The position numbers and the translations under genes were made by a program. DNA of 64,000 bases from Isoetes taiwanensis (taxonomy: Eukaryota > Streptophyta > Lycopodiopsida > Isoetales > Isoetaceae), in NCBI GenBank assembly GCA_021234155.1, contig JAJEKV010000009.1:9430546-9494545 (forward strand), given 5' to 3'. Numbering within the stretch: position 1 is the stretch's first letter; each line of letters starts with the position of its first letter. Under the pieces are notes generated by a model. The model saw nothing but the letters and a program-made list of their open reading frames with translations, had not been told where the DNA came from and did not search any database. This document shows positions 11,356 through 64,000 of the stretch, piece by piece.

Positions 11356-12063
11356 ATGGCAACCTCTGATTTTCGCAGATGGTACAGCGCCAGCGCTCAT
11401 GCTGCCGAGGCCGACGTCGACCAAATCTTCCATATCTTCAGGAAGGAGGTAGATGTCCAAGCAACCTTGCACGCAACCCCAGCTTACAGTAGAGTCTTGT
11501 CTGAGTTCCAAGCTAGGGTAGAACCAGCGCTAGTGCAACTCCCCCCTTGCATAGGCTACTTTGTCCCTAGACAATCCCTGCAAGCAGCATTAGGCGATGT
11601 TCCAAACATCGCCAAATACCTGACAAATAAGGCGCAACGCACACCTGAGCCAATGGTCCTAACTGTCAATAGGACCAAGTACTTCTCCTTCAACACTGCC
11701 TTGGCAATCTTTCTCACCCACCGTGCCGAGAACACCGTGGGGGAAACCTCCATTCCCCCCATGGACGTAGACCCATTAGCCATAGCAGCAGAACAACGGC
11801 TCCTTACGCAGTATGAACAGGAGCAGGAAGGAAAACAAGAGGAGGACTCAGACGAACAGGAATCCGAGGAGGAGGAAGACTATGTCGAGCTCGACCCAGC
11901 GGAGGAGCGGCGACAAGCAGAGCAGGAGTGGCAAGACTTCGAGAGAAGTCGGCAAACTCTTAGAGTCGCGCCACCCCTTGGGCTAGGCATTACAAGCCTA
12001 GCCCCCATTATGGTCGAAGGCGAGGAGTTTCTGCTTCTAAGCGACAAGCCATCATTCAATTAA
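11356..12063 (+). CDS. R2 leader ORF 2: unknown 235-aa protein
   Basis: Opens at a true ATG and reads 235 codons without a break, one of the cleanest frames in the window. The N-terminal about 145 residues look globular (FRRWYSASAHAAEADVDQIF ... YFVPRQSLQAALGDVPNIAK). The remainder is a strongly acidic tail of Glu, Asp and Gln, about residues 150-205. No family is recognised. The last five codons and the stop lie inside the left terminal repeat of element G (12049-12077). The natural C-terminus has therefore been replaced by transposon sequence and the original protein was probably longer. Confidence 0.5.
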   Translation: MATSDFRRWYSASAHAAEADVDQIFHIFRKEVDVQATLHATPAYSRVLSEFQARVEPALVQLPPCIGYFVPRQSLQAALGDVPNIAKYLTNKAQRTPEPMVLTVNRTKYFSFNTALAIFLTHRAENTVGETSIPPMDVDPLAIAAEQRLLTQYEQEQEGKQEEDSDEQESEEEEDYVELDPAEERRQAEQEWQDFERSRQTLRVAPPLGLGITSLAPIMVEGEEFLLLSDKPSFN

Positions 12064-12077
12064 ATTGGGTTTATGTC
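12049..12077 (+). repeat. Element G copy L, outer terminal inverted repeat
   Basis: CCATCATTCAATTAAATTGG followed by GTTTATGTC. It is the inverse of 24358-24386 with two mismatches in 29 bp. Confidence 0.85.
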
Positions 12078-12254
12078 TTAATTTTGGGACAAATTTCATA
12101 TTGCATGTTTTTAGTAGCATATTCAAATTCACACATTTCACCTCAAAATTATGAAAACGTAATATCATGTTATTTACAAAATAGTCAATATTTCACAATA
12201 TAGCACCATATCATAAAAACGTGATAACAAAAATTTACATAGTTATTCAACTTT
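12078..12254. other. Element G copy L, AT-rich subterminal region
   Basis: AT-rich, non-coding sequence between the outer terminal repeat and the stop of gene E. It has repeated TCATATT/ATATCAT-like words and no clear motif. Confidence 0.5.
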
Positions 12255-15170
12255 CTTCAAGCACCCCCAATGATATCATAGCCTTCTTCCTGACATCCTG
12301 AGGTATTGTAATTCTCGCATTTCTAGCTGGAATAGTGTTTGGAGTCCATGAGTACAAAACACTTTCATAGTCTAGCCAAAGATCGGGATCACTTTCGGAT
12401 TTCTCCTCCATCTCTTTGTCCAACAATCTGAGTACCTTTCTTTATCCGATCACGTTGGTCAAGCTGATGCCTTTGGACACCACCATTCCACCCGCACATG
12501 GTTGAAGTTAATATTACCTTCTTCTTTGCAAATATCGGAGATAGTGAACCCCAACCACCACCTTTGGATATGTATCTAAATCGATGGCTTTACTACCACA
12601 AATTGGTGGCATTCCAAGTTAGTGGAAGGTTCATAAGCATCCATGCCTAGAAACTTTGGCCTATTGTTCTTAGGACCAACATAGTGTTTGTCGGAAGGAG
12701 GAGGAGCATATTGCTTTGCGAATGCTACTTACAGTGTCATCAAAATCCTCAAAGACTGCTAAGGTCTTCCACCTAGTCTTAGGCAACCACCCTTCTTTCA
12801 ATTCATCCGAGGATGTGTCTATCTCCCCAACGGGTTAATCACCTTCTTCCAAAGAAGCCACCAAGGCACGGTTGGTGTCATCCGGATTGGTTTGCCAATG
12901 CTTTATATAGTCTTGGATTCCTTCCTTAGTCAATCCCAATTGCTTCACTTCTTGAGAGGTTTTAAAGCTTTTGGTTGACCTAGAGGTATCATAGGCTTGC
13001 CATTCTCATCTCTACGCCATATTTCCTCCCCTCCTCTCCACTCATCCTCTGAAGGTCTCATCTTCCATTGGAAGATTGGAATCCCATCTCTCACCCAAAA
13101 AAGTGAACTGCGCAGAGGCCTGGAATGACCTTCAAGATCCAATGTATAACCATCCACAAAGCTCTTCCAATCGGGCACTTCTTCTATGAGAGAAGCTATA
13201 GGGTTTGGAGTAGTGCATTCATGCAAGATTTCCATTAGCCTAGGAAAGTTGGTCCTTGTTGTTTTCGCTTCAAGATACAACTATATTTGCCAAATAATGC
13301 ATCCACATCCTCATGGGTATGCCCGGGCATAAGAAACCCTAAATTAACTCTTTCAAATATCCCCACGGTGTTAAGTAGGATAGGAAAGAAAACATCCACT
13401 GTTCTTATTTTGGCCGGCACAATTATCAAGTTGCAAGAGAAACCTTTTGGGTAGATCTTGAGGTTTAGCACGATGAAGTTGAAGCTCCAACATGTTCATT
13501 AGACCCATGCTTCCTAAACCTTGCCTTCTTTGAACTTTTCAATATTGTTAGGGTTTCCATCTAACAATGCTCTATGTAGTGCCTGGCTAGGCTGAAGGTC
13601 CTGGAGGTGACCATTGTATCCATTTTCATAGTTTCTCAAACACCTCATGATACTCCCAATATGAAAAACGGACCATCACTCCACAACTCCAAACTAAAAT
13701 GGCCATAGTAGGTTTGATTCGCCCATGCAAGATTGCCCTGATCATTGAGATCTCGTAAAGGGTATGATCTTCCACATGACTTTGGTATGTACTTGAATTG
13801 TGGAAGACAAGTCTTTTGCTGGTCCATCTTGTCATGTATAATACATAAATAGTTATTGGGTTCCAATGCGGATAAAGTCCTCCACATCCAATAACATGAT
13901 CTACATGATAGTTGGTCGGTCATATGGTCCTTCATATGCTCCCTTATCCTAGCCCTTTGACTAGGTTGCACAGTCTTATCAAGAGTCTCCTTCAACTTAG
14001 CACATAAATTGCACTTTGCAAAGTTGTTTGAAGTTGCTATGGTGACATGATTGAAATGCTTCTTCCATAACCTACTAAAGCTAGGTTGGGATATTGGAAG
14101 AATTCCCAATTCTCAAGTAGGGAATTCACTTCTTCCAAAATACTCTTTTGAGTACAATGTGATGGCAACCTTTTCTCAACAACTGCTCTTCCCTTTTCAT
14201 CCCTTACGCTTTTGTGTGGCATAGACTCTGCATTGAAATTAATATATTTTTCAAATATCTCCCGGCAGCCGGGGTCCTAGTCATTGGTCTCAACAAACCA
14301 TTATTTCCATGTAAAGCAATCCTGATTTCCCCTCACTTTTGTTTTTTTTTTTGCCAATTATGCCATGAAGAAGTTGGAATTGCATGGATACTCGCCATGC
14401 TTTTGCACATATCCATTTGCCTAGCAAAGGGTATCTTTTTTGTTTGGGTTTCTTTCATCTTGAAGTGCATGCTTTCGAAGATTGTGTACATGTAGGTCCT
14501 CCTCTCATCAGCGGTGTACTCTTGAAAAGTGGCTCTTGCTTCCACCAATTGTTCTATTGTGAAGAATTGCATACAATCACTCCAACAACAATCGAGCCCC
14601 TAACCTTCACCATTGTCTCACGTTTGGTGTCACTAATCAACTTGGCTCTTTTGCTAGGATAATGTCCGGCAACCGATATTTTGCCTAGGTTTAGAGTTCC
14701 AACCGCCAATGGATCAATATCAAGACAATCATTGTCCCCAACAACCTCGGGCTCGGAAAAATATAATCCTCCACAAATTGAACACTACTTATAGGCCATG
14801 CCATGATGCAAGGAACCTCCAATTGCTTGACACAACCAAAACATTCCTTGTCACCCAAACCTTTACCTTTCGGTTGTCTTCCAACATCGAAATTGCAATA
14901 CCAATATTGTCTTCCCTAGCCTTTCATCATTACTTGGGTTGACCGGGATGCGCTAGCACAATGACTCCTTGGCCTACTATTTCCTTGTTGCACTTGTGCA
15001 TGATTCTCACCTTCTTGTTCCTCCATTGCACCCTACTATAGAGGACTAATTGTTTTTCTTCAACATTCTTGCTAGGAGTTGGTTTTTCATTGATATTGCT
15101 CTTTTCAATATGTTGCACACCATCTTGAGTTGAAGAGGCACCATTGACCTAGGCAAATTGCACCCTTTTA
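12255..15170 (-). pseudogene. Gene E (copy L): DUF7869-like DDE-type transposase candidate
   Basis: Reading leftward, pieces in several frames give one long protein. The N-terminal part has LVLYSRVQWRNKKVRI near 15050 and the region AIPTSSWHNWQKK near 14350. A middle part has SRLWKKHFNHVTIATSNNF and the paired cysteines CNLCAKLKE near 13990-14060. CIIHDKMDQQKTCLPQF is near 13830 and LGFLMPGHTHEDVDALF at about 13290-13335. The C-terminal tail TIPARNARITIPQDVRKK is near 12290, with stop at about 12255. The HTHEDVD box and the acidic residues before it characterise the DUF7869 family, a presumed RNase H-fold transposase/integrase. Multiple indels break this copy; copy R has the counterpart at 61140-64000. 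Confidence 0.72.
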
Positions 15171-15609
15171 GTCAATGAGTAAGAAAACATTATTACACCA
15201 TAAGATAAAAAAGTACATTACATTTATGGAATATGTAGAGGTAAATCAAATTTTTTAAAAGCAAGAAATTCCTTGGAAATAGGTTTAATATAATAATAAC
15301 AATGGTAAAACGAAATCATTTAAAACAAGGATTTTCATGGCAACAACAAAGGAAATGACATTTATATAAATATATCCAAATTTTAATTATCGAAAATTTG
15401 GATATATGATTCTGAAAAAGACATATAACTAATAGGCGTGAGAATTTATTATCCATAATAATATACCCTAGATAATATAGGCGGGAATTTTAAATGCGCT
15501 GGCGTGTTATTTGAGGTAATAAATTATTCACGCTAAGAGCTAATTAACCCTATATAAATCCGGTTCGCTCTCAAGACCATTCTGTCCCAATTTTTTTTTT
15601 TACGCCGCC
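15171..15609. promoter_or_regulatory. Divergent intergenic region between genes E and D (copy L)
   Basis: AT-rich region between the minus-strand gene E and plus-strand gene D, so both promoters should lie here. On the gene D side there is a TATA box, TATATAAATCC, at 15551-15561, about 59 bp before the ATG. Just upstream is ATTATTCACGCTAA (about 15522-15535), a half-site of the palindrome found across element G. A 14-bp inverted pair TATCCAAATTTTAAT / AAAATTTGGATATA is near 15370-15400. Confidence 0.6.
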
Positions 15610-18287: not shown

Positions 18288-18436
18288 ACTGGGCTTGAAA
18301 GCGATGAGTGCAGGATTTTTGTCCGGTTTATCCAGTTTATCCAGATTATATACAATTGTACACTTTTTCCAATGAATACAACAAATTTTGTCTACTTCTA
18401 TATTTCTACAATGTAATACATGTTACATACCTTTTT

Positions 18437-18655
18437 TAAGCGGTTTCTTGGCCATGCAACAAATGTTCCAACACTTTCTCCAACCGTATCCCCACCGGGG
18501 TGTCTGCGAGGTAAAGCTTCATCCATAGCGCAGCAGTTAATCACTGTAACTCGGACATACTTATCCCCGAGCAGAATTCCATGGCGGTTTCTGATCGGAT
18601 CGATGGAGTCGATCTTGCATAATCCTACTTTCCTTTTTTGATTTGTAGTTAACAT
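18437..18655 (-). pseudogene. Gene C (copy L): DUF8039 / Tnp-like domain
   Basis: The minus-strand exon reads MLTTNQKRKVGLCKIDSIDP ... HGILLGDKYVRVTVINCCAM ... DTVGESVGTFVAWPRNRLKK. It is followed by GTATGT, a good splice donor or the end of the coding block. The pattern of a small beta-rich domain ending in a 'G-x-V-G-x-x-V-A-W-P-x-x-x-L' signature resembles DUF8039, found in plant En/Spm-type transposon proteins. Upstream exons are not certain; MATEFWYSSHSNSLNINF near 18750 may be one. The same domain is present but more broken in copy R (57365-57600). Confidence 0.5.
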
Positions 18656-19119
18656 GAAACATTCATCTTCGACACTGCAGAAAATTGCTATTCAGACACC
18701 TACTATTGGAAATTAATGTTCAAGCTATTGGAATGAGATGAGTACCAGAATTCTGTAGCCATTCTTGAGAAGCTGATTTGAGTCTCTGAAGCTGATTTGA
18801 GAAGCTGAAGGCGCTATGGAAACTCTGGCGGTCGGGAAAATTCGAATTAGAAGAAAGATTAGGTTAACTACGTTTAGGCGGGATAAATTTGGCGGGATAC
18901 TTTTTGGGTAGATTGGTTTTTAAAAACTTAATGAAAGAAGTCGGCGGACGGGTCTTCGTCATTATTATTTGTATGTGTCAAGAATATTTCGAAACTGCAT
19001 TTTGTGTTTTCTTGAAATTCAAATTTCTCTATTTCTCGATGCTGGTAGAAAAAGCTATTTCTTGGCGGCTTCGGCGTATCAGAAGCGACCTTGGACTACT
19101 GTTACTAGGCGACTCGGAG

Positions 19120-19256: not shown

Positions 19257-19642
19257 GTATTTAATTTGCCATAGAATACACACTGTGTGGAGAGTATTAT
19301 GCTTGCATGAATTTGAGATATTTCCTTGCCTTCAGATAATATGCTTTGCATGAGTTTGAGTTATTATGCTTTGCATGAATTTTAAGTATTAACATCAGTT
19401 AATGCTCTGATTGTCCGTTCTGTAGAACATAATTTTGCTCTGTTTTATATATAGAATATAGCGGTGTTAGACAGTTGGAGATAGCAATGTTCAATGAGGT
19501 TAAATAGTGTGAAATATGGATTCATGAAGGGTATGTAGCTTAAAATGTGGATGCAAAATAATTTAGTTTCAAATTAACGATAGCATGGTCAATAATAGGA
19601 GATACCAACATGGCGTGATTTGTACTAATTTAGGTTTAAATG

Positions 19643-22600
19643 CACGCATGGCGTGATCTCTTGTTACGAAAAGTACTCTAAAAAGTGCTCATCTTCATTT
19701 GCGGTGCTCAAGAGGAAGAAAACCCCTACTAATTCGGGTTCTAATCACGCCAAGAAAGCAAAGCGGGGCGACCAGGATGATGCGGTACCATATGATCTCA
19801 CCTTAGATGATGAAGGGCCGATTCTTATAGCAACCCACGACCTGCATACGAAGAGGAAATGGGCGAGGGTGCCGAGTGGTACGTTGACCTTGCCAAGACA
19901 AATGGCAAGCTCGACTTAACTCTCTTCTCGAGGAAAAAGGAAGCGGAACAAGATGGCCAAACAAGGGATCCTAATCTCTTGTGAGGAAGAGGATGACACC
20001 AAGCGCAAATTGCTCTTGGAGATTACAAGCGAAGAAAGATCCTTTCGGACTTACTCATTGTAGAGCTCACGCATACAAGGATACGTTCATGAAGGCGGAT
20101 GTGAGCGGTGAGACATGTTTTAAGTATGGTTGGCCAACCAATGTAGCGATTCGCCAATATCTATTTGCCAAGGGGTTACAAATGGTATGCGTAGAGGCAT
20201 GTTCACTAAGCCCGACACCAAGTCACTATTTGCGGCAAGCTAGGAATTAGCTGACTTGAAAGCTTCTAAAAGGGTCCTAGATCTAGGGAAGAATGTTCAA
20301 CCTGCGGTTGTCCGAAGGCATGGAGGCTTCGTTTTTGAGAATGAACAGACAGAGTGGCGCAGCCTACTAGAGGCCATGAACAAAATTGAATATAAATGCA
20401 GTGACCATTATCCATTGGGTCTTAAGGAAACTTTTGCGATCCATGTGAAGTCCCTCATCCGTTCACCAAGCTCCATTTATGTTAGCATGAGATATGATCC
20501 GGCACATGCCATGGAGATTGTTGAGCATGATTAATAATCCAGGTCAAATGCCTATGCCGGCCCGGATGTGCTACCTTGGGATATGATCTCGAACAAGCTT
20601 CTTTGTGGTGGATGAACGTCCGGGAGCTATTATCAAGTGATGATATTAAATATGTCATCATCGACGGCAAAGCATTCCGTTGAGGCACAAAAGGCCATCA
20701 TCGGCAAAAGAGAACAAACAGGCCAAAAAGTGTTCTACAATCACTATGCATTATAGGAGGTGTCATTATCTTGGATGCCAATACTTCACTGCAGATTTGG
20801 CCGAGATTAGTGCAACTTTGAATGAAATGGGGAAGACATTTCTATACAAAAGGTAATCAACCTGGTTTCATAAATTGTATTCACGCCGGTGCTTTCAAAT
20901 CAAACCAATTCACGCCGGGCGTGTTTTGAAATCAATCAAATTCACGCCAGCGTGTTTTCAAGTCAACCAATTGATTTGAAAAACGCGGGCGCGGAATTCG
21001 ATTGATTTAACGCTGGCGCGGAATTGGTTTGATTTGATTAGCACTGCGGAATTGCATTAGTAACTTTATTCATTTCACGCCAGGCGTGATTTTTCTCTTC
21101 ATCAATTCTATTCAAATCGCACCCGGCGTGTTTCTATTCTATGATCTTGATTCAATGTGCGTACTATTGCAGTCCATACGTTGAACAAGCTGCATACGCC
21201 CGATCAGCGATTGGGTGGAATATGGCTGCCCATTGCCCACCGCACGGGGTGGGTCAAAGTCGAGGCATTCAAGCTCTTTGGAGGCGGACTCGCCGCATGA
21301 GACAATTATACAGAGAAGAAGAAGGCCGCAAGAAAATCAAAGAAAAAGGTGGTGATGACATTGCGGATCCTTCCGAAAGCTCATCCGGCAGGTCGAGAAC
21401 CAACAGACTTCGTATAAGATTGTGTTTTGTAAGGAGGCGGTATGGCTCAAGTGGAATGAATGCAGGGACGCTTATGCACAAGGGAAGCCGCCGGATACTA
21501 TGGGTAGGGTGCCTCTGTTGATGTAAGCATCTTTGACTTGAATGTGATGAGAGATGAGAAAGACTCGGGGGCTAGGCGGCGGCCGAGACCATTTGGGTTT
21601 TAGACCAGTGCTTAAAGAAGGAAGTCTTATACAAGAAGGGTGCTTTCACCAAGGATAGGATGTCCTTCGTTGAGTCTTTGCTGATCATGTAAAGGATGTA
21701 CGTACAATGAAGTCAAATTTGTAGGAGCCTGAGTTACAAAGGCTATCGGGGGATGTGGCATTATCCGAAATTGGATTCTTTGGACAAATACAAGGTCAAG
21801 AATGATGACATCAAGAAGTTTGTATTCGGTCAAAGGACTTCCTAAAGAATTGGAAGGCTAAAAATACAAAACATAAGGAGACTCTACCCCTAAGGATACT
21901 TGGTGAGTTGAGAAGAAAAGTGGCCCTTGTGAAGAAGATTCTTTGGAGAAGGCGACAGCATCCAAAGATTCGGTCTCCATTGGGTACAAAGGTCTCTTTG
22001 CCGATTCAACTTCGGCCTTAAAAATATATCACTCTTTGTGTTGGACGGCGGGGGTGGGAGAGGAGATATGGGCATGAACCGGAGAAGGACTACGGTAGCT
22101 TCTTTACCAAATTTTGTATAGGATTGACAAGCGAGAGGTCCTTCACTATTGTCATCGTTTGTCCTTGGTGAGTCACATGCATGCACTATCTGCGCTGCTC
22201 ATGATCCTGGAGTGCCTCAAAGTTATTGGGGAGGGATGCCTAATATATGATGTTAAGGATAATGAGTGCGAACGAGAATGGAAGATGGCACATATGATCT
22301 TTATTATGATATCCATCTTTGTCGGGCGAGGAATATGATATTGCTAAGGCCAAGGGTGACAATAGCGGTGCATGGGAATGTTTTCTTCTAGATGATCCGG
22401 ACTTAAGAACTATATTCTTTCATACGGATCGGGATCGGTCGAAACGGGGATGAGTCGAGAAGAGGATGAGGATGGGACCCCCCTCTAAGTGGGGAAATCA
22501 AGTCTGAGCTACAAACTAAGGAGAAGGGCCCCTTAAATAAAAATGGATTTCCCGTCTATGGCTGCTTACCTCGTCGAGGCATTTGCTCCAATTGATACAA

Positions 22601-23759
22601 CTTGCTTGGAGCTTCATGTTGGAGGTTATATTGCCCGAGAGGCTCTTATGGGTGCAAGAAGATGTCCTTTGCTTTGAGTGATGAGCAGGCCAAAGACTTT
22701 CTTGAACCATTCCTCATGCATGTGCTTGCCAAGTCTCCTAAAGGCCCTTATGGCAACCTGAAATCATCGGCAATCAAAAGTCTCGTGAGACTTGTCCAAT
22801 TCGAAAGTGGGCGTTGCTCCGGAGAGGGAACTAGTAATGCTCGCACTTGATAAGGAAAGCAAGAATGAACAAATAGCTGCTAAACCTGGTTGCTCAAAAT
22901 ACTTGTGATGGCGGCGAACTTAGGGAATATCCTTGCCCACATTGCGGGTGATGCAAGCAACAATAGAGTAGATTCACGGGTTAACAATGAAATAATTGTG
23001 GGGAAACCGAAAATGAAGGCAACGAAGGCGGCTCTAGTGATTCACGAGGTTTGCCAAATCAATAGTAAAATAATGTCGGTTGTGAAGGGCCAAAGGAACT
23101 AATAGAAAATAACAATTCTAACGGTCGGAGGAAGAAGACGAAGATTAAGGGTGGCGGAGGGGAGAATGGCGCCGATGGCAAATAAACCGAAGATGATAGG
23201 TATGGCCTTGCCCGCGAAATAGCGCCCAGCGTGATTTAATTTGTATTACCTTTGAATTAAATCGCATGGCGTGCTTTGATTATTTTTCGTTGTCAAACTA
23301 AATCCGCGAAAGAAGCGATTTGGTTATGACTATTTCAAATCACGCTTGGCTGGCGTTTGTATTGTTTGTGTTATCGATATCTTCTTGTGGGGATACATGT
23401 TTGATGTTTCAGCTTCCATTGCGTTTCTAAGAAGGTTGTGGTGTTCGACCTAAAGCGGAGTCCTTTGCAAGACTTTTCCGAAAAATAAAGTGGCTAGAGA
23501 ACGGTTTCATCCGGATACCGGTAGAATCAAACACCAAGTGGATCTATCCGGCCGCGACTTGAAGGAGATGCTAAAGCGAGGCATTGAGGTTATTTCGAGT
23601 TGGTATTTGGTCATCCATGGAACTAAGGAACATCAAGGATACTTTGAAGGCTTTGGGGAAATGCGTAGAAATTGGTTGACCCTTTGGGAACAGAACAAAT
23701 GTGTGAAGTTCACTAATCCCAAGGATCCAACAGCAAGCCTATCTTCATCAAACACTTGA
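19643..23759 (+). pseudogene. Gene A, downstream exons (copy L, decayed)
   Basis: Plus-strand pieces match the better copy in R. CSSSFAVLKRKKTPTNSGSN is at about 19690. PYDLTLDDEGPILIAT is at about 19790-19836. CFKYGWPTNVAI is at about 20120. HYPLGLKETFAIHVKSLIRS is at about 20400-20462. LELHVGGYIAREALMGARRC is at about 22608-22667. The C-terminal block GEMRRNWLTLWEQNKCVKFT is near 23660, with stop at 23757-23759. An intervening stretch (20870-21130) is non-coding and full of palindromes. Many indels break all frames. See the copy R entry for domain discussion. Confidence 0.6.
20881..21130. repeat. Palindrome-rich intron-like segment of gene A (copy L)
   Basis: Repeats of CAAATCAAACCAATTCACGC type alternate with the 13-bp palindrome. 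Good copies are at 20911-20923 (CACGCCGGGCGTG) and 21076-21088 (CACGCCAGGCGTG); decayed ones lie between. Neighbouring units are in opposite orientation, so the stretch can fold extensively. Copy R has the counterpart at 43870-44100. Confidence 0.75.
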
Positions 23760-45353: not shown

Positions 45354-45442
45354 TTGGTATCTCCTATTATTGACCATGCTATGCGTTAATTTGAAACTAA
45401 ATTATTTTGCATCCACATTTTAAGCTACATACCCTTCATGAA

Positions 45443-46029: not shown

Positions 46030-46044
46030 CTCCCCCACCAAACG
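46030..46044 (-). promoter_or_regulatory. R3 polypurine tract
   Basis: On the minus strand TTTGGTGGGGGAG lies directly before the LTR start TGTTAATC. It is the probable plus-strand primer. Confidence 0.8.
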
Positions 46045-46110
46045 ACACTTTCGAGTGAAGAAAAGGAGGAAGCGTTTTGGGAGGGGGGAAGCCATCACCG
46101 AAAGTGATCC

Positions 46111-47460: not shown

Positions 47461-47646
47461 CGTGACTGAATAGCTTGTTGCATTTGTTGTTGTTCGAGAT
47501 CACGGATCCGATTTTCCTTTTCGAGTAGGAGGCGGATCGGTCACGGACCCGTTTCGAGAAGGATTGACACGGGAGGAAGATTTCCGGTGTATTGAGACGG
47601 CACGCGGCAATCTCCGGCGTCATCAGTATTTTTACGTTTACGCACC

Positions 47647-52044: not shown

Positions 52045-52930
52045 TTCTCGGGATTGAGACTAATGCGGACTCATCACATTTCGGAAGACGAGTTCCAATT
52101 TATCCAAATGGTCAGCCATGGGCTCAGAGCGGAGAAGTCATCTTGAAAAATTTGCAAGAAGGGATTTTCCTTCATGAAATCATGAAAAAGCGAGAGCATG
52201 ATTCGTTGAAATGTTGAAGGAGAGTTGGATAATCCAAAAGGAACCACCTTGTAGGCAAAAAAGTGCTTACGGGGTGGTGAAAGTGGTCTTGAGTTGATCA
52301 GATTCTTTGATGGAGATCCGATTGTAGCGAAAAAACCATCCATAAAGGAGTACATCTCATGTCCACCACTTCTTCGAGAACTTGGTGCGTGAAGGGAAGT
52401 GGAAAATGATCACGCCCGTGGCTGATTGAGTTTCCGATAGTCGAAACCACGGCGGATCTTACCATTGTGCTTAAGGGCAATGGCGATAGGGCTCACCCAT
52501 TGAGAATGTTTGACCTCATAGATCAAACCTGCGGCAAGGAGTTTGTCAATTTCCGCCTTGACGCGATCCGCGGTAATTAGGGTTGAGCACATGCTTGTCG
52601 TGGATACAGCGGGGTCGTGCATCGATTTGGTAGGAATGGTGAGTTCCCCAAGCTTTTGTTGATTCCCAGAAGATCTTTGTAACTCCGGTGAAAATGTGTT
52701 TGAATTTTTGAACAGTGGCGGCTACATTACGATAAGGAGCGGAAGGTTTGCGGCAATGCGACGACGGGTTGATTGTTGCCAACATCCACAATCGACTTCG
52801 AGTCCGAATATGGGGTATGACTTCGATTATCTGGACAATGTGTGCGGGAGGTTGGAGCATAACCGGATCGTGGCACTGCGTGGTGAAAAGAGAGGTTGCT
52901 TTCGGTTTCATCTAGCGGTGCTTGCTTCAT
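52045..52930 (-). pseudogene. R3 reverse transcriptase
   Basis: VKAEIDKLLAAGLIYEVKHS, WVSPIAIALKHNGKIRRGFD and YRKLNQ (near 52570-52425) form the start of the RT palm. FAYKVVPFGLSNSPSTFQRI (near 52262-52203) is the conserved PFG block. LFHDFMKENPFLQIFQDDFS contains a YxDD-equivalent FQDDF (near 52140). Scattered frameshifts. Confidence 0.88.
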
Positions 52931-53244
52931 GGCGGCGTGTACATCAGCAGGAGTTGCGGGAGTGTCGCGATCCGAAAAGTGATCAGCGTTGGATTGATTG
53001 CAAGGAGCGGGTAGGGGTCAAGCAAGGCAGCCACGGCCGGTCACGATCAAGAGTCATTTCTCCCCAAGGATCGGCATATTCGGGGTAGGAGGATAGAGGC
53101 GGACGCAGCAGGTGGAGCTGAACTTGATAAATATTACGAGCTTCTTCGAATCGATTAATGCGAGAGAGGGTTCCGCATTGTCAGCAGAAATGATCACACT
53201 TTGTTTGCAAGTCCATGGTGGCATTGAGATGACCATCGTGATGA

Positions 53245-53640
53245 CTAAGCGGTCCGTGGCCCGATAATGGATACTCTTTGCTGGCGGAGAAAGGGTCTGC
53301 CTACCAGCATTTCATAGTCACCTGGATCTTCGCCAGCTTTCCACACTCCAAATTCCATGGGAAAGCGGAGATCACCTATGTTGATGTGAAGAATAGGTGT
53401 GCCGCCTTGAGGTCTCGTGATATGGCCATTAGCCAATTTGATGTCATATGGGGCCGCGAAAAAGAGTTGTGTGATGCCCATTTGTTTGCGGAGTTTATCA
53501 GTGATGAGATTGATTTGCACTACCTCCATCGATTTGAACATGGTTGACTTGCTGATTTCCACCGTTGCATGGACCGTGGGTGTAGAGGTATACGGCCCCA
53601 ACTAAAGCAGTTGGGAGTGGTAACTGGTCCTTGAGAGCAG
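53245..53640 (-). pseudogene. R3 protease
   Basis: VNLITDKLRKQMGI-like sequence and YDIKLANGHITRPQGGTPIL (near 53455-53390), then DYEMLVGRPFLRQQ (near 53311-53270), are the flap and C-terminal motifs of a retropepsin. The active-site turn appears as IDGGS near 53505, in the Athila/Tat style rather than DSG. Confidence 0.8.
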
Positions 53641-54560
53641 GACAGAGTTTTAAAATGGTTGCCAAGCTTAAAGGAATTTTGATCTTGGCAAGCTCCTCTT
53701 GGAGTTCGAGAGGTACATGAGAAAAAGGATCTGCTGGTTCCACTGGTGCGGGAGTGCGTGGCAGGGAAGCAGCAACTTCTTTGAGTAAGTCAACCTCGGC
53801 CGCAATATTGGGATATGTCTGAGAGCGTGGAGGTTGAGATGTTGAAGGGGTATCTTGTCTTTGTTGAGCTCTAGTGGTGGCATGAACATTGGCCAATGTG
53901 CGGCCTTGGCAGGCTTGCATGAGATTCAAAATGCTTTGACGAACTTTGGGCATGACATTTGGCATGAGCTTTTCCAAGTCAGGTGCAAAGTGAACCTTTT
54001 TTTCGTCCTCATGAGGAATGGTGTCAACTGCAAAGGCAGGTTGCGTGTCCTTCTGAATAATAGTCAAGGGACGTGATGCCTTGGTCTGGCGTGAAACGAG
54101 ACCAACCCAATTTGATGGCTGTACGGGAGGATTAAGTGCCTGAAAAATTTCCTCTTGGGCTTGTTGATCCAGGTGAGGTTGATTTCTTTGGAGCTGGTTG
54201 ATAAGCGTGATTCTTTGAGGCTCTTGGGGGCTTCTTAAGAACTGGTCGCGGGCCTTGTTTGCCATTAGCAAGCCGAGTTGGTAAGCCGTGAGGCGGACCG
54301 ATGTGGTCCGATTTGTGCCGGGAAGCTGGACTGAACTTGTGGAAGTTGAGGACACGCTGTGGTGGTATGACCCCATTCTTGGCGGATAACACCGAGCTTT
54401 AGAAGGATCAAAAGGAGGGCGTTGGTTGGATCCCCCGTGGTTGGTCCCGCTGTCGATAGAGTTGCGTGGGCTACTTTTTGAAGAGGTGGCTGGCGATAGT
54501 GCGATTGTGGCTGAGGTGTGGTTTGCACTTGATAAACCATTTTGTTGCGGAGCGGTGTGG
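53641..54560 (-). pseudogene. R3 Gag-protease linker
   Basis: An open 383-codon minus-strand frame (54649-53498) covers this region. It is rich in Pro, Gln and Thr and includes FAPDLEKLMPNVMPKVRQSI and VEPADPFSHVPLELQEELAK. It joins the zinc-knuckle region to the protease. No known domain. Confidence 0.65.
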
Positions 54561-55720
54561 GATGAGTGCGAAAGTGCACTCTTCCGCGGCATGATTGCAC
54601 ATGTTGCATCGCTTGCAATGAGGCGGGCCATTGGTGGAGTTGCACTCATTGGCCAAATGGCCTTGATATTTGCAAATATGGCACCGATTTGTTCGCTGGT
54701 GGATTAGCGTGTTGAGAATTTGAACAGCCCGTTTGTGGAACCATGACGGGTGGAATGAGCGGGAGCTCTTGAAGAGCCTCGGGGAGGAAACATTGGCCGG
54801 AGTGATTGACAAGGTCGATAGCTTGCTCCAAAGTTTTGGGACGCAGTATTGATCATGAGTCGAATAGCGGGAGGAAGTCCTTGGAGAAACCGGACCAAAA
54901 TGGCTCGTGTAGGGTACTCCTTGAGCTTCTTGGCGAGAATGTGAAGTCGATCCATAAAATCCGAGGCGGAACTCAGGTGGGCTCTTGTTGAAGTTCATTG
55001 AGTTGCTTGAGATGAAGTTGATCATCATCCGTGGTCCCGTAATGAGAGAGAAAAGCAAAGGCGCATTTCGGACCAGATCTTGTTTCCAATGGCTTTTGTT
55101 GGACATGAGCCATTGATGAGGAAAACCACGCGGTGTGGTGGAAAAAGATGTGGAATTTCAGGTGAGGTTGCGGTGACCATTTAGGACAGCTAGAGCCTCA
55201 AATTCTTCCATGTGGGCCTGAGCACTTTGGTCTAACGGTTTGCCTTTTCGTGTTGCCAAAGGTGGGATAAGTCGGTTTGAGTCCGAAAGGTAGATGTGAA
55301 AGTCTTTGGGGTTTGGGCAGAACAGGGATAGTGAGGATATTGAGGTTGAGGTGGATGTGGCATTGTGCCCGGACGGACGATGAAGGGGTGACCGCGGTTG
55401 AGAAACCGGGCAGCCTAGGAGCATTGGTTTTGAGATCTGTAAGGTTGTAAAGCAGGAAGAGCCGGGGAAACGTAGGGAAAGGATATTCCCTGGGTAGGCC
55501 AAAAAGGAGACATGTGGATAGCCGTAGTACCCACCGGGGAGATGATGGTTCTGGAAGGTAGAGGCGTATGGCCTGAAGAATGATGGATGTAGGCATGTTC
55601 GGGGGTGTGAAAGTACGGGTTGAGAAGGTTGAGCCGGATAAGGCTCGATAGTGATGAGGGACTGAGGTTGTGAGCAATGTTTGCACGCTTTGGGGGGGAA
55701 CCGGGGCGAGGCCCGGACAC
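54560..55720 (-). pseudogene. R3 Gag
   Basis: A proline-rich start (near 55720-55300), then LTHLKQL-type capsid sequence and LHILAKKLKEYPTRAILVRF (near 54945-54885). Two zinc knuckles follow, CHICKYQGHLANEC and CKRCNMCNHAAEEC (near 54690-54580); both are complete CX2CX4HX4C. It forms the particle shell in the family. Frameshifts near 55000-55100. Confidence 0.82.
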
Positions 55721-55908
55721 GAGGGGGTGGGTGGCGCGGTGAGCCCTAGGCAGAAGATGGCCTCCCCTCTATGTCATAAGCGAGAGCCATACATGTCGCG
55801 AACAGTTTCCCGACGCTGATGGCTCCAAGCGAGATGCCGTCGAGAAAGGAGTTCTTCCGGGCGTGAAATTACGGATGACATGGCGATGTAAGAAAGTAGG
55901 AGAAAATC

Positions 55909-55926
55909 AGACCCAGCAGCGGCGCA
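55909..55926 (-). promoter_or_regulatory. R3 primer-binding site (tRNA-Asp type, one base short)
   Basis: On the minus strand TGCGCCGCTGCTGGGTC lies two bases after the LTR end. Athila/Tat elements use TGGCGCCGTTGCCGGGG-like sites. This one lacks a G and has two substitutions. Confidence 0.65.
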
Positions 55927-55928
55927 TG

Positions 55929-56510
55929 TGTTTGGGGTGCGGGTTGGGAACTCTGGGAAGACGACCCTCTGTGAGGACCCGTGGATCTAACAGGAGAGTC
56001 CGGGGGACTATGTCACGCGGGATTTGCTGAAAGAGAAAAAGAAGAGAACAGAACAATTGAGAGAAAGATGATAAGCTTCCTTGATATCAATGATGAAAAT
56101 ACATGAGCTCTCGCAATAGAGAGAAAACTGAAAGGAGACAAGACTCAAAACTCATCTAAAAACTTATGAGCTAACTCTACTCATATATATAGTACAATGG
56201 CCTTGGGCCCAATATAGACACTCTGACTGATCTCGGTGCCGACTCCTGGAAGGAGGCCTGATTTGCAGGAATGTTGGCGGTGCCTCTTGAAGTGCCTAGA
56301 ATCACGCTGACGCTGACGCGGGCGGTGACGGGCCGTCACTTGTCTGAGCGGCGCCTCTTGTTGACAGCCAAAGGCTTTGACTGCGTGGCCTGCTGCTTAG
56401 TCTTCTGTGGAGGCTTGGATGTCTGACCCGTGGTTGACTGAGGATCTTTGAGCTTGACCTGGTCTGACGTATGCATGAATAGTCCTGTACCAGGAGGCAC
56501 AGGACTAACA
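55929..56510 (-). repeat. R3 5' LTR (582 bp)
   Basis: Reads TGTTTGGGGTGCG ... CAGGACTAACA on the plus strand and is followed by the ATGAA duplication. Confidence 0.92.
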
Positions 56511-56779
56511 ATGAATCCATATTTCACACTATTTAACCTCATTGAACATTGCTATCTCCAACTGTCTAACACCGCTATATTCTATATATAAAACAGAGCA
56601 AAATTATGTTCTACAGAACGGACAATCAGAGCATTAACTGATGTTAATACTTAAAATTCATGCAAAGCATAATAACTCAAACTCATGCAAAGCATATTAT
56701 CTGAAGGCAAGGAAATATCTCAAATTCATGCAAGCATAATACTCTCCACACAGTGTGTATTCTGTGGCAAATTAAATAC

Positions 56780-56915
56780 CTTGAATAGGGTTCGTATTAT
56801 TACGGTATTTGATCAACGTCCTACGAAACTTGAGAAGAGCCGGGTTTAGAGATTCCTCTTCCACCGCTTCCCCTCTGCCGTCGTCGCCTCGACCTCGATT
56901 CGCTTTAGAAGACAT
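56780..56915 (-). CDS. Gene A exon 1 (copy R)
   Basis: ATG at 56915. It reads MSSKANRGRGDDGRGEAVEE, then SLNPALLKFRRTLI, with the donor CAAG/GTATTT at 56780/56779. Homologous to 19120-19256. R3 sits about 265 bp downstream, inside intron 1. Confidence 0.5.
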
Positions 56916-57364
56916 CTCAAGTAAGCCTAGTAACAGAGTCGGGAAGGTCGCTTCGGATCTGGCCTTTCGAGCTGCTTTCGAAGAAATAGCTTTTTCTACA
57001 GACGAGAAATAGAGAAATTTGAATTTCAAGAAAACACAAAATGCAGTTTCGAAATATTCTTGACACATACAAATAATAATGACGAAGACCCGTCCGCCGA
57101 CTTCTTTCATTAAGTTTTTAAAATCCCGCCAAATTTATCCCGCCTAAACGTAGTTAACCTAATCTTTCTTCTAATTCGAATTTTTCCGACCGCCGAGTTT
57201 CCATAGCGCCTTGACTTCTCAAATCAACGAGGAGACTCAAATCAGCTTCTCAAGAATGGCTACTAATTCGGGTACTCATCTCATTCCAATAGCTTGAACA
57301 TTAATTTCCAATAGTAGGTGTTCGAATAGCAATTTTCTGCGTAATGTCGAAGATGAATGTTTCA
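56916..57364. promoter_or_regulatory. Divergent region between genes A and C (copy R)
   Basis: Genes A (minus) and C (plus) point away from each other here, as in copy L 18656-19119. AT-rich, with GGCGGGATAAATTTGGCGGG-type repeats on the minus strand near 57125-57145, which could be promoter elements. Confidence 0.45.
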
Positions 57365-57600
57365 TGTTAACTACAAATCGAGAAAAGGAAAGTAGGATTA
57401 TGCAAGATCGACTCCATCGATCCGATCAGAACTTATCATGGAATTCTGCGCTTCGGGGATAAGTATGTCCGAAGTTCTGATGATTAAGCTCGCTGCGCTA
57501 TGGATGAAGCTTTACCTCATGAGACACCCGGTGGGGATACGGTTGGAGAAAGTGTTGGAACATTTGTTGCATGGCCAAGAAACCGCTTAAAAAGGTATGT
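57365..57600 (+). pseudogene. Gene C (copy R): DUF8039-like fragment
   Basis: Same exon as 18655-18437 but with more indels. The end VGESVGTFVAWPRNRLKK is readable across frames near 57540-57592, followed by GTATGT. Confidence 0.45.
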
Positions 57601-57726
57601 AACATGTATTACATTGTAGAAATATAGAAGTAGACAAAATTTGTTGTATTCATTGGAAAAAGATTACAATTGTATATAATCTGGATAAACTGGATAAACC
57701 GGACAAAATCCCGGACCTCTTTTGTT

Positions 57727-58375
57727 TCAAGCCAGGTCCTCTTCGAGTAGTGGGCTATCGATACTCCCATTTCCATTGCAGGGCATAGTGAATTCTTCTG
57801 GTAAAACCCCAGCAAAAACACCAGGCTCTAGCTCCACCACCCCCGCCTGCTCCACCTCCACCTCCTGCTCCTCCTCCTGCTCCACCTCCTGCTCCATTGG
57901 TTGAACCTCCAATGCATCATTATAAGCGCTGGTAGTGGTTCCATTGGTTGAGCCATCTCCATTGCATCGTTATACCGCTTTGTGGTAGTGGTTCGTGTTG
58001 GGGCATCCGGGCATAGAGGCTAACCACTAAGAAACGCAGCTCCTCATTTTGAATCTCGAGCTGACGGATGCGAGATTCACTCTCGATCAATGCATGTACT
58101 GCATTCTCGAAGTGATTAGATAAGAGGGCGAGCCTCCGTGCGATTGCAAGGGCCCCAGAGCCCAGATCTATCATTGCCTGGCGCTCTGCCGCCATCATCA
58201 TTACTTGATCCAAGTACTCTCGGGGGTTGCAAGATCGGTGCTCCGGCCAGGCGGTGCTCTACCGCGGTTCAACCGGTTGGAGATTGGAGCCAAAACCGAG
58301 CTGGGTTGTGTGATTGCTGGCCCAAATGTAATTCCAATCCATCTTCGCCACCAACCGGGTGATTAATGTAACTGG
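57727..58375 (-). pseudogene. Gene B (copy R): coiled-coil / acidic-tail protein
   Basis: Minus strand. A 97-codon frame from 58213 reads MDQVMMMAAERQAMIDLGSG, LSNHFENAVHALIESESRIR and QLEIQNEELRFLVVSLYARM, a clear amphipathic helix/coiled coil. The acidic tail MEVQPMEQEVEQEEEQEVEV and VFAGVLPEEFTMP then lead to the stop at 57727. The N-terminal start near 58375 is one base short compared with copy L. Conservation between copies in the helical part supports a real gene. Confidence 0.52.
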
Positions 58376-58414
58376 CATCTATCAATAGGAAGTGGCGAAT
58401 GTATCGGTATTCAC

Positions 58415-58670
58415 GCTGGCGTGTTATATTTCTTTATTTATAAACTTAGAAACTAAGACACACGCCCGGCGTGTTTAGCGTAAAAGTTGAAAGTAGGGAT
58501 ACAATTGTTTGCACGCTCAGCGTGTAAACTGCTATATAGGAAAAACTATACACGCTCGGCGTGCATTCAGCAGCCAGCGTGTAAATAATTGCCTGGCCTT
58601 TATCTATTTACTTATCTATCTGTACAGGTTTTTTTTTTCTCCCTCCCTGCTGAATGCACGCCGAGCGTGT
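58415..58670. repeat. Cluster of CACGC-NN-GCGTG palindromes (copy R)
   Basis: Members include 58461-58473 (CACGCCCGGCGTG), 58512-58524 (CACGCTCAGCGTG), 58551-58563 (CACGCTCGGCGTG) and 58657-58669 (CACGCCGAGCGTG), in the 5' region of gene B. Single-arm remnant of the copy L hairpin near 58578-58625. Confidence 0.85.
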
Positions 58671-59291
58671 ATTCATGTTGAAGGCTAAGGTTACCCTAAA
58701 ACATGCTTAGCGTGTTTCAAATATTATCTTTCAGATTTTTCTAATGCTTTCTACTACACTTATTCATAATAGAAACTTGCATGCAATAGCATGATTAATT
58801 CAGGAAGAGAAACTCAAGAATTTACCGAAGAAAAAAGAAGCGGATGAAGTTTATAAAAACTATTACGGTTTTCATAAACATCATCCGCTTCCTCGCCTCG
58901 AGCAAATGCAAAAGCTTGTCTTCTTGGATTAAACCATCATTGAGATGCAACTTAAAACTAAATGAAAACTAACCTTGAGTTCGAGGCTGGAAGGATTCAA
59001 GAGCGGAGGACTATGCTTGTGGTTTTAATTCGAGGCTTTTCGATTCATGAGACCTTAGTCCCTCGCTTTTGGTTTTAATTCTCGAGTCTCGATTTCCTCT
59101 TTCTGAGATGCTCTGAGAACAAAAGGCGGAGTCTTTTAGTAAGTTAGGAATTGCGAAACCAAACATCTAACATTGATGAATATAAATCTGCTCACCAAGA
59201 TTTGGGACGGGCGGATCCAAACACGCCAAGTTAAACCGGCAAATCATTATGAAGGAAGGGAAGAAAATGTAGGAACTTTGAGGCGTAAAAT
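58671..59291. other. Gene B 5' non-coding region (copy R)
   Basis: Mirror of 16720-17270. It probably contains untranslated exons and introns; no supported frame. Confidence 0.45.
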
Positions 59292-59302
59292 GGATTTATA
59301 TA
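59292..59302 (-). promoter_or_regulatory. TATA box of gene B (copy R)
   Basis: TATATAAATCC on the minus strand, preceded by TTAGCGTGAATAAT (inverse of ATTATTCACGCTAA) and CACGCCTGGCGT. Confidence 0.6.
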
Positions 59303-60020
59303 GGCACAATTAGAAAAAAGTTAGCGTGAATAATTGATTGCTTGAATTAACACGCCTGGCGTACGGTCTTCCCGCCAGACATGACATGTATATGGTATAT
59401 ATGGAGAATATTGCATTTCATGCAATAAATTCTCACGGCATTTTATTCCATTTATTGCATTCGAAAAAATAGAATTTAGAAATTTTATATAGGCTACATT
59501 AAAAATGATTTTAAAGGCAAAATTATGAAGGCTAAAAAATGACTTGTAAGGTTGGGGAATTGTTTTAGGTCGTATAGGAAAATTTCCTATGGTTACTGTG
59601 ACGAATCAGAGATTTCTCATGTGGTTGATTTATAGTGTTCCGAGACTTTGTTGAGACAAAATTTGGTGATACAAAATTCTAGAGAGACAAAATTTTAGAG
59701 AAAAACTTGACTTGGAGCCAAAATAATTGGAGAATCTGAGTTTGATTTTATCCAAAAAATTTATGTCTGAGAAAAAGCTGTTTGAAGAAAAGCTGTTTGA
59801 AGACAAAGTTTATGAAGAAAACTGTTTGATTTCATTAAAAAGCAGTTGTATGTACAGATGCGAAGGCTTGGAAAGCGATTGCCCGAAGGCTTTTCACACA
59901 ATTCTGAGAAAAAAAAATGCCCTGGGCGTGTCCAAAACTTCGTAAGAATGGAAACAAAAATGGGCGCTTAGGGATCGCATCACTCTTCTTCCACGCGCGC
60001 AACAAAGAAGAAAGAAAGGT
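59303..60020. other. Intergenic region D-B (copy R)
   Basis: Mirror of 16061-16706. AT-rich, with GAGAAAAAGCTGTTTGAAGA-type short tandem repeats near 59770-59815. A 72-codon plus-strand frame here looks like chance. Confidence 0.45.
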
Positions 60021-60704
<684 letters not shown>

Positions 60705-60754
60705 GGCGGGAGAAAAAAAAATTGGGACAGAATGGAGGTCTTGAGGCGTGAACC

Positions 60755-60765
60755 GGATTTATATA
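60755..60765 (-). promoter_or_regulatory. TATA box of gene D (copy R)
   Basis: TATATAAATCC on the minus strand, 51 bp upstream of the gene D ATG, with TTAGCGTGAATAAT beyond it. Confidence 0.6.
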
Positions 60766-60799
60766 GGGTTAATTAGCTCTTAGCGTGAATAATTTATTG

Positions 60800-61140
60800 C
60801 CTCAAATAACACGCCAGCGCATCTGAAATTCCATGACTATATTATCTAGTCTAGGGTATATTATTATGGATAATAAATTCTCACGTCTATTAGTTATATG
60901 TCTTTTTAGTAATCATATATCCAAATTTTTCGATAATTAAAATTTGGATATATTTATATAAATGTCATTTCCTTGTTGTTGCCATGAAAATTCTTGTTTT
61001 TAAATGATTTCATTTTCGCCCATTATTATTATTATATTAAACCTATTTCCAAGGAATTTCTTGCTTTTAAAAAATTTGATTTACCTCTACATATTCCATA
61101 AATGTATGCATTACTTTTTATCTTATGGTGTAATAATTTT
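60800..61140. promoter_or_regulatory. Divergent region between genes D and E (copy R)
   Basis: Mirror of 15171-15540, AT-rich. It contains CCAAATTTTTCGATAATTAA and its partner AATTTGGATATA, forming a local hairpin near 60921-60955. Confidence 0.5.
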
Positions 61141-64000
61141 TTCTTACTCATTGACTAAAAAGGGTGCAATTTGCCTAGGTCAATGGTGCCCCTCCAACTC
61201 AAGATGGTGAAAAGAGCAATATCAATGAAAAACCAACTCCTAGCAAGAATGTTGAAGAAAAACCATTAGTCCTCTATAGTAGGGTGCAATGGAGGAACAA
61301 GAAGGTGAGAATCATGCACAAGTGCAACAAGGAAATAGTAGGCCAAGGAGTCATTGTGCTAGCGTGAGATCCCGGTCAAGTTTGTTAATGATGAAAGGCT
61401 AGGGGAAGACAATATTGGTATTGCAATTTCGATGTTGGAAGACAACTGGAAAGGTAAAGGTTTAGGTGACAAGGAATGTTTTGGTTGTGTCAAGCAATTG
61501 GAGGTTCCTTGCATCATGGCATGGCCTATAAGTAGTGTTCAATTTGTGGAGGATTATATTTTTCCAGAGCCTGAGGTTGTTGGGGACAATGATTGTCTTG
61601 ATATTGATCCATTGGCAGTTGGAACTCTAAACCTAGGCAAAAGTGGAGAAGTATCAGTTGCCAGACATTATCCTAGCAAAAGAGCCAAGTTGATTAGTGA
61701 CACCAAACGTGAGACAATGGTGAAGGTTAGGGGCTCAGATTGTTGTTGGAGTGATTGTATGTAATTCTTCACAATAGAACAATTGGTAGAAGCAAGAGCC
61801 ACTTTTCAAGAGTACACTGTTGATGAGAGGAGGACCTACATGTACACAATCTTCGAGCATGCACTTCAAGATGAAAGAAACCCAAACAGAAAAAGATACC
61901 CTTTGCTAGGCAAATGGATATGTGCAAAAGCATGGCAGAGTATCCATGCAATTCCAACTTCTTCATGGCATAATTGGCAAAAAAAACAGGCAGAGGGGAA
62001 CAGGATTGCTTTACATGGAAATAATGGTTTGTTGAGACCAACAGCTAGGACCCTGGCTGCCAGGGAGATATTTGAAAAATATATTGATTTCAATGCAGAG
62101 TCTATGCCACACAAAAGCAGAAGGGATGAAAAGGGAAGAGCAGTTGTTGAGAAAAGGTTGCCATCACATTGTACTCAAAAGAGTATTTTGGAAGAAGTGA
62201 ATTCCCTACTTCGAGAATTGGGAATTCTTCCAATATCCCAACCTAGCTTTAGTAGGTTATGGAAGAAGCATTTCAATCATGTCACCATAGCAACTTCAAA
62301 CAACTTTGCAAAGTGCAATTTATGTGCTAAGTTGAAGGAGACTCTTGATAAGACTGTGCAACCTAGTCAAAGGGCTAGGATAAGGGAGCATATGAAGGAC
62401 TACATATGGTGACCAACTATCATGTAGATCATGTTATTGGATGTGGAGGACTTTATATCGCATTGGAACCCAATAACTATTTATGTATTATACATGACAA
62501 GATGGACCAGCAAAAGACTTGTCTTCCACAATTCAAGTACATACCAAAGTCATGTGGAAGATCATACCCCTTTACAGATCAAATGGGGCAATCTTGCATG
62601 GGCAGAATCAAACCTACTATGGCCATTTTAGTTTGGAGTTGTGGAGTGATGGTCCAGATTTTCATATTGGGAGTATCATGAGGTGTTTGAGAAACTATGA
62701 AAATGGATACAATGGTCACCTCGGGACCTTCTGACTAGCCGGGCACTACATAGAGCATTGTTAGATGGAAACCCTAACAATATTGAAAAGTTCAGCAAGG
62801 CAAGGTTTAGGAAGCATGGGTCTAATGAACATGTTGGAGCTTCAACTTCACGTGCTAAACCTCAAGATCTACCCAAAAGGTTTCTCTTGCAACTTGATAA
62901 TTGTCTTTGGCCAAAATAAGAACGGTGGATGTTTTCTTTCCTATCCTACTTAACAAATTTGTGGGGATATTTGAAAGAGTTAATTTAGGGTTTCTTATGC
63001 TCGGGCATACCCATGAGGATGTGGATGCATTATTTGGCAAATATAGTTGTATCTTTGAAGCAGCAAACAGTGACCAACTTTCCTAGGCTAATGGAAATCT
63101 TGCATGAATGCACTACTCCAAACCCTATAGCTTCTCTCATAGAAGAAGTGCCCGATTGGAAGAGCTTTGTGGATGGTTATACATTGGATCTTGAAGGTCA
63201 TTCCGGGCCTCTGCGCAGTTCACTTTTTGGGTGAGAGATGGGATTCCAATCTTCCAATGGAAGATGAGACCTTCGTGAGGATGAGTGGAGAGGAGGGAGG
63301 AAATATGGCGTAGAGATGAGAATGGCAAGCCTATGATACCTCTAGGTCAACCAAAAGCTTTAAAACCCTTGAAGAAGTGAAGCAATTGGGATTGACTAAG
63401 GAAGGAATCCAAGACTATATAAAGCATTATAAAACCAATCCAGATGACACCAACCGTGCCTTGGTGGCTTCTTTGGAAGAAGGTGATTAACTTTGTTGGG
63501 GGAGATAGACACATCCTCGGATGAATTGAAAGAAGGGTGGTTGCCTAAGACTAGGTGGAAGACCTTAGCAGTGTTTGAGGATTTTGATGACACTTGTAAG
63601 TAGCATTCGCAAGCAATATGCTCCTCCTCCTTCCGACAAACACTATGTTGGTCCTAAGAACAATAGGCCAAAGTTTCTAGGCATGGATGCTTATGAACCT
63701 TCCATCGACTTGGAATGCCACCAATTTGTGGTAGTAAAGCCATCGATTTAGATACATATCCAAAGTGTGGTTGGGGTTCACTATCTCGATATTTGCAAAG
63801 AAGAAGGTAATATTAACTTCAACCATGTGCGGGTGGAATGGTGGTGTCCAATTGCATCGGTTGACCAACGATCGGATAAAGAAAGGTACTCGATTGTTGG
63901 ACAAAGAGATGGAGGAGAAATCGAAAGTGATCGATCTTTGGCTAGACTATGAAAGTGTTTTGTACTCATGGACTCCAAACACTATTCCAGCTAGAAATGC
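61140..64000 (+). pseudogene. Gene E (copy R): DUF7869-like DDE-type transposase candidate, C-terminus outside window
   Basis: Plus-strand frames in order. LVLYSRVQWRNKKVRIMHKC is near 61270. GEDNIGIAISMLEDNWKGKG and CFGCVKQLEVPCIMAW lie at about 61400-61530. A 209-codon frame (61783-62412) has IPTSSWHNWQKKQAEGN, SQPSFSRLWKKHFNHVTIAT and CNLCAKLKETLDK. Then YLCIIHDKMDQQKTCLPQF (near 62480), LQLDNC (near 62888-62905) and LGHTHEDVDALFGKY (62999-63043), followed by DWKSFVDGYTLDLEGHS (near 63157). The three acidic boxes, IHDKMD, QLDNC and HTHEDVD, are consistent with a DDE-type RNase H fold. This is the best transposase candidate of element G. Two or three frameshifts remain, and the start exon is unclear. 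Confidence 0.75.

Follow-up and report, generated by a model that had tools for sequence, protein, structure and literature searches.

Introduction

Among the TIR (terminal inverted repeat) elements of plants, those of the CACTA/En-Spm type are large, combine a transposase with accessory genes, make 3-bp target site duplications (TSDs) and have CACTA or CACTG ends; the self-synthesising Polinton/Maverick elements make TSDs of 5-6 bp and carry genes for a protein-primed DNA polymerase B, a capsid and an integrase. Closer in anatomy to the element that is the subject of this report are the Sola transposons (Sola1, Sola2 and Sola3), which, according to passages of one survey, have a DDD transposase, 4-bp TSDs, TIRs of 11-1,124 bp and lengths of 2-9 kb, with some above 15 kb, and which occur in seed-free plants, including a moss, and are uncommon in flowering plants (PMC10741241). 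In amoebal Sola2 elements, according to passages of another paper, the transposase-bearing 5' part is constant and the 3' part variable, and the 4-bp TSDs are AT-rich (AWWT) (PMC3627910). Ginger/GingerRoot elements are also TIR DNA transposons, with TSDs of 4-6 bp, TG...CA ends and a Gypsy-integrase-like transposase (passages of PMC10741241). Here we describe a multi-gene TIR element present as two opposed copies, L and R, in a 64,000-nucleotide stretch of the lycopod Isoetes taiwanensis (assembly GCA_021234155.1, contig JAJEKV010000009.1, positions 9,430,546 to 9,494,545 of the forward strand), the whole of which is called the window below.

The two copies very probably belong to an abundant family of large, multi-gene TIR DNA transposons, most likely moved by a DDE/D transposase that contains the Pfam domain DUF7869, a reading based on bounded ends of about 31 bp, consensus-free 4-bp TSDs, a high copy number and the position of a DUF7869 gene close to one of the ends. 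A title and text search of the literature, which covered the papers in passages, returned no description of the element, in keeping with a first-pass annotation, made from the letters of the window, which knew of no described plant transposon with this gene set and these ends; the anatomy, on the other hand, fits the published Sola superfamily as passages of PMC10741241 present it.

Bounds and ends of the two copies

A BLAST comparison of the window with itself resolved the inverted duplication into four collinear segments (Table 1) and bore out the earlier observation that the sequence from 12049 to 24386 reappears inverted from 40612 onward once a nested retrotransposon, R3, is removed. The first-pass annotation was also right that TIRs bound the element, although the true limits lie two bases further out: copy L occupies 12047-24388 and, at 12,342 bp, has the length of about 12.3 kb proposed for each copy, whereas copy R (40610-64270) amounts to 12,593 bp without R3. 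The right end of copy R, expected near 64280, was found at 64270, 270 bp past the window in the flanking sequence of the same contig. Both copies have the ends AACCATCATYCAATTAAATTGGGWTTATGTC, except that copy L begins AG, and they differ from each other at 5.6-5.7% of sites, gaps set aside. Two opposed copies in one window could also suggest a random inverted segmental duplication without mobility, but this reading is already refuted, as the TSDs differ between the copies, the ends are exact and copies with the same ends occur throughout the genome. An empty-site test of copy L was uninformative, the interrupted frame running on for only a few residues across the joined flanks; the open reading frame (ORF) that copy L breaks lies at 11356-12063, encodes 235 amino acids (aa) and has no Pfam match. 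A search against Rfam gave 0 matches.

Table 1. Features of the element and of the sequence nested in it, in window coordinates.
Feature	Position	Strand	Remarks
Inverted segment 1	12317-15987 / 64000-60326		93.1% identity, window self-BLAST
Inverted segment 2	16190-17409 / 59865-58582		86.0% identity, window self-BLAST
Inverted segment 3	17495-19525 / 58551-56511		89.6% identity, window self-BLAST
Inverted segment 4	19520-24392 / 45443-40607		90.5% identity, window self-BLAST
Left TSD of copy L	12043..12046		4 bp, GACA
Left TIR of copy L	12047..12077	+	AGCCATCATTCAATTAAATTGGGTTTATGTC; core with 2,674 genome-wide matches
Gene A, copy L	12276..15246 (approximate)	-	Putative DUF7869 transposase; small indels interrupt the frames
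Conserved coding block	18296..18686 (ORF 18401-18691)	-	Sub-threshold TNP1/En-Spm-like
Gene D, copy L	19629..20853	+	Located by tblastn with the 406-aa frame of L085; DGQHR/ParB-like domain probable in second half; frames broken
Remaining right-hand coding zone	20854..23435	+	Protein conserved between subfamilies; may be a single gene or more; without a recognised domain
Gene E, copy L: NIF/FCP1 phosphatase-like domain	23436..23906 (approximate)	+	Homology to ORF of L012; frames broken
Right TIR of copy L	24358..24388	-
Right TSD of copy L	24389..24392		GACA
Left TSD of copy R	40606..40609		GTGT; partner at 64271-64274, outside window
TIR of copy R	40610..40640	+	Partner finishes at 64270, outside window
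Copy R, part with genes D and E	40610..45442	-	Includes ORFs 42935-43753 and 44619-45329
R3, nested retrotransposon in copy R	45443..56510	-	11,068 bp; foreign to the TIR element
Copy R, remaining part	56511..64000	+	Stops at window end; gene A on plus strand from ~61070

The family across the genome

The genome searched comprised 1,658,258,908 bases in 1,110 contigs; passages of its description give the I. taiwanensis assembly, built from nanopore reads, a size of 1658.30 Mb, with 204 scaffolds and 909 contigs (PMC8566536). A 20-bp core of the TIR matched exactly at 1,329 places in forward and 1,345 in reverse orientation in these 1.66 Gb, against 0 for a reversed-pattern control, so the ends exceed chance, and the counts correspond to some 1,300 elements if each had two exact ends. 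Among the first 100 TIR places there were 31 adjacent pairs in plus/minus orientation, 15 of them spaced 12,106-12,470 bp and 16 more widely (from 13,748 bp); none of the 31 was closer than 12.1 kb. The short, deleted derivatives that commonly accompany DNA transposons were absent from these 100 places. Three TIR ends on contig C2 (L001, L002 and L003) have identical 25-bp flanks, from which it follows that a stretch was duplicated there with the element already inside.

Nine further whole copies, selected by a TIR spacing of 12.1-12.5 kb, were fetched, and all share ends and layout with the window copies, rather than sharing only parts with differing boundaries. A 4-bp TSD flanks 20 of the 21 copies inspected (all nine fetched copies, both window copies and nine of ten further pairs, the pair on C24 being the sole failure), and these TSDs follow no consensus. 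The earlier proposal of a TIR element with definite bounds, whose copies share several genes, thus agrees with the TIRs, the 4-bp TSDs and the genome-wide copies. The family falls into two subfamilies: copy L is joined by L010+L011 and L018+L019 in one, and the other seven copies form subfamily II, within which gene A is 92-95% identical in most BLAST comparisons, against about 80% between subfamilies. In the right half of the element the subfamilies are alike mainly at the protein level. In element coordinates, protein conservation between them covers gene A (0.05-3.0 kb) and a short block at 6.25-6.65 kb on the minus strand, and a zone at 7.75-11.85 kb on the plus strand. The element is one family among many in this genome.

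Gene A and its DUF7869 domain

That gene A is DUF7869-like, as proposed from the letters alone, is supported by Pfam matches in two broken frames of copy L (E 1.3e-8 and 2.4e-9) and, far more strongly, in the open 667-aa frame of L078 (E 3.1e-37), one of the relatives found by searching the genome with a gene A piece; another, L077, has a frame of 798 aa. This search gave 8,176 first-look candidates, and the 150 scored matches, at 89-99% identity, split into groups of about 93-99% and 89-92%. Across 53 aligned sequences, the L078 frame offers a candidate acidic triad in which D345 is near-invariant and D472 and D514 are invariant, with D or E at the neighbouring position 512. An RNase H-like core appears in the predicted fold of a DUF7869 relative and is extended to gene A by sequence. 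Foldseek returned no match at E <=0.001, its best rows including Argonautes and acetyl-CoA carboxylase as well, and a DUF7869 profile (A1) had 0 matches among PDB sequences at E 1 or better. NCBIfam had no match for gene A, nor did a protein database searched with a 256-aa piece of it, among 74 candidates, a query of this size excluding full-length relatives.

By inference, the DUF7869 protein is a DDE/D transposase, with D345, D472 and D514 as its candidate triad, that binds the AT-rich near-palindrome CCAATTNAATTGG within the TIR, excises the element and inserts it at cuts staggered by 4 bp. On this reading, thousands of proteins of corals, molluscs, liverworts and ferns that bear only the name DUF7869 would prove to be transposases. 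The right-hand genes, conserved between otherwise diverged subfamilies, would serve the element; for example, a ParB-like part could bind element DNA and a NIF-like part could contact the host transcription machinery.

DUF7869 reaches well beyond this family. Relatives were found in the liverwort Riccia, the fern Adiantum, corals, bivalves, amphioxus and the hemichordate Saccoglossus (138 at E <=0.001, of which the best 120 were listed), and the host genome has 9,904 first-look candidates, with 150 of 150 scored matches above the cut-off and none in 14 control genomes. The domain is therefore far commoner in the genome than the TIR element, and at the head of the scored matches stands a different family, which shares about 25% identity with gene A. 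A second DUF7869 family (L069, L070, L071) is even more abundant; its right end, taken from three copies of L069-L073, also finishes GTT (AAC inward) and occurs 506 + 551 times genome-wide at <=1 mismatch, with 0 in the control, and no left end was found in the copies compared.

Relation to Sola and to other DNA transposons

The anatomy is of the Sola type, and the element may belong to Sola. In the plainest form of this view, to which we give an even chance, it is an ordinary member of the superfamily, perhaps of Sola2, DUF7869 being the Pfam name for the Sola transposase and the extra genes being comparable to those reported for some Sola2 elements. The 4-bp TSDs, the variable TIRs, a size within the range that extends above 15 kb and a seed-free host all accord with Sola (passages of PMC10741241), the candidate acidic triad may be of the DDD type, and the constant transposase part beside a varying remainder recalls Sola2 (passages of PMC3627910). 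The likeness is nonetheless one of anatomy by description; the AT-rich TSDs of amoebal Sola2 differ from the consensus-free ones here (PMC3627910), and the passages of PMC10741241 and PMC3627910 do not mention phosphatase-like or ParB-like genes for Sola.

Somewhat less probably, though still a serious contender, DUF7869 could define an undescribed, eukaryote-wide DDE superfamily with 4-bp TSDs, of which the element would be a giant representative that brings along accessory genes. The breadth of hosts and the number of candidates in this genome favour such a superfamily, as does the absence of the term DUF7869, by its Pfam label a domain of unknown function, from what the literature search met. 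A missing Pfam label says little, however, as the transposable-element literature uses other names, and DUF7869 may yet belong with Sola, Novosib, KDZ or another named group. An extension of this idea is more speculative, and we consider it rather unlikely: an unnamed DDE superfamily spread across eukaryotes would have DUF7869 as its catalytic core, and one branch of it would have become here a giant, obligately multi-gene transposon whose transposase needs ParB-like and phosphatase-like partners encoded in the same 12-kb unit. Such a need would account for the lack of TIR pairs below 12.1 kb in the sample (n=31).

Other described systems lie further away. From Ginger/GingerRoot the element is set apart by its AACC...GGTT ends and by DUF7869, and the copy L frames scanned contain no match to the rve integrase. 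Size and gene number could suggest a Polinton/Maverick-like or virus-derived self-synthesising element, which we regard as extremely improbable: the TSD is too short, and Pfam scans of copy L, which has broken frames and was covered only in part on the plus strand over its first 3.5 kb and on the minus strand beyond, met no domain typical of a polymerase, a capsid, packaging or a retroviral-type integrase.

The middle block and the right-hand genes

For the middle of the element the first-pass annotation had named a DUF8039-like gene and two acidic accessory proteins. DUF8039 has no Pfam match in any frame scanned, and the best candidate for it, the minus-strand ORF 18401-18691, has a single match, to Transposase_23/TNP1, which falls below threshold (E 0.062). 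This match, together with the presence of several genes between the TIRs, could make the element a CACTA/En-Spm relative with a TNP1-like accessory gene; that is very unlikely, given a TSD of 4 bp rather than 3, ends in AACC... rather than CACTA/CACTG and scanned frames that lack any CACTA transposase domain. Eight frames of three other copies had no match of any kind, and 57923-58258 on the minus strand gave DUF7341 alone, below the cut-off (E 0.025). As to the acidic proteins, acidic and coiled-coil stretches do occur, but they belong to no family, and at 3.0-6.2 kb the subfamilies show no clear conservation of protein; these stretches are accordingly not counted as genes here.

A methyltransferase signature, suspected in a long right-hand protein, has no Pfam support in the frames scanned; the right-hand gene carries instead a NIF/FCP1 phosphatase-like domain, and it is possible, as a guess, that the string NPPSY within this domain gave rise to the faint signature. 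The NIF domain of this gene, E, was recognised by Pfam in a 233-aa frame of L081 (E 8.1e-17, 61.8 bits) and a 302-aa frame of L082 (E 5.2e-13, 49.4 bits), against a gathering score of 21.8, and covers 158 of 160 profile positions, so that gene E resembles NIF/FCP1/SCP phosphatases over nearly the whole domain; its best PDB sequence match is UBLCP1 (E 0.012), and NCBIfam gave only HAD matches below the cut-off. Many of 150 scored copies have a frame of this kind, 232 or 233 aa long. Phosphatases of this group usually have a catalytic DxD in motif I, whereas L012, L081 and L082 all read FDLNGVL, with Asn in place of the second Asp, which makes catalysis by gene E doubtful.

The assignment of gene D is weaker. 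Its recurring 406-aa frame (L085) has DndB as best Pfam match (E 0.02; 14.4 bits against a cut-off of 29.1) and a ParB-like family, phrog_1033, as sole PHROG match (E 0.077), and the two coincide on one stretch. There the protein reads IDGQHSVEA (IIDGRHSIEARKILI in subfamily II), with His-Ser where the DGQHR motif usually has His-Arg. When the whole genome was scanned in six frames for DndB, 16 matches had an E value of at most 1, each on profile positions 37-127; none (0 of 16) was above the cut-off, the best reaching 19.8 bits, and at least seven lie within 7 kb of a listed gene A, D or E place, in fitting orientation. Gene D is thus among the genome's best DndB-like sequences, weak as the assignment is. 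PDB gave two unrelated matches for it (E 1 and 1.8), NCBIfam none, and a protein database searched with the 273-aa ORF 42935-43753 no match among 400 candidates, full-length relatives being excluded by a query of this size.

Genes A and E are also linked: when 123 of the 150 places of gene A were compared with 132 of the 150 of gene E, 30 pairs lay within 25 kb, 29 of them in the divergent arrangement of the element and 19 spaced 8.8-11.0 kb, against about 0.5 expected by chance. A phosphatase-like and a probable ParB-like gene extend what plant DNA transposons are known to contain and are an unusual cargo for cut-and-paste elements.

Broken reading frames

In the gene A region of the seven subfamily II copies, 31 of 34 CAG/CTG sites lie in indel zones, compared with 797 of 2,733 trinucleotide positions overall, and CGC, CCG and CGA are likewise enriched. 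Across the copies from L012 to L027, particular CAG/CTG and CG sites are hit repeatedly by indels of 1-2 bp, with letters that differ between copies. Since these contexts are methylated in plants, the recurrent indels likely stem from methylation-linked base-calling errors in nanopore reads; real mutation may have contributed, although decay of methyl-cytosine would yield transitions, not indels. In early nanopore assemblies, genes that lie in methylated repeats may accordingly only look dead.

Retrotransposons in and around the element

R3, the long terminal repeat (LTR) retrotransposon nested in copy R, has direct LTRs at 45443-46029 (587 bp) and 55929-56510 (582 bp) that differ at 5.6% of sites, and a 5-bp TSD, ATGAA; at E 0.01, Pfam recognised nothing in its four longest ORFs. 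The second DUF7869 family contains solo LTRs of the R3 type, in L069 and L071. The window also holds a Gypsy-type LTR element in two diverged copies (about 74%), at 163-4895 and 25797-40610, which encode gag, protease, reverse transcriptase, RNase H and integrase, with a chromodomain in the second copy.

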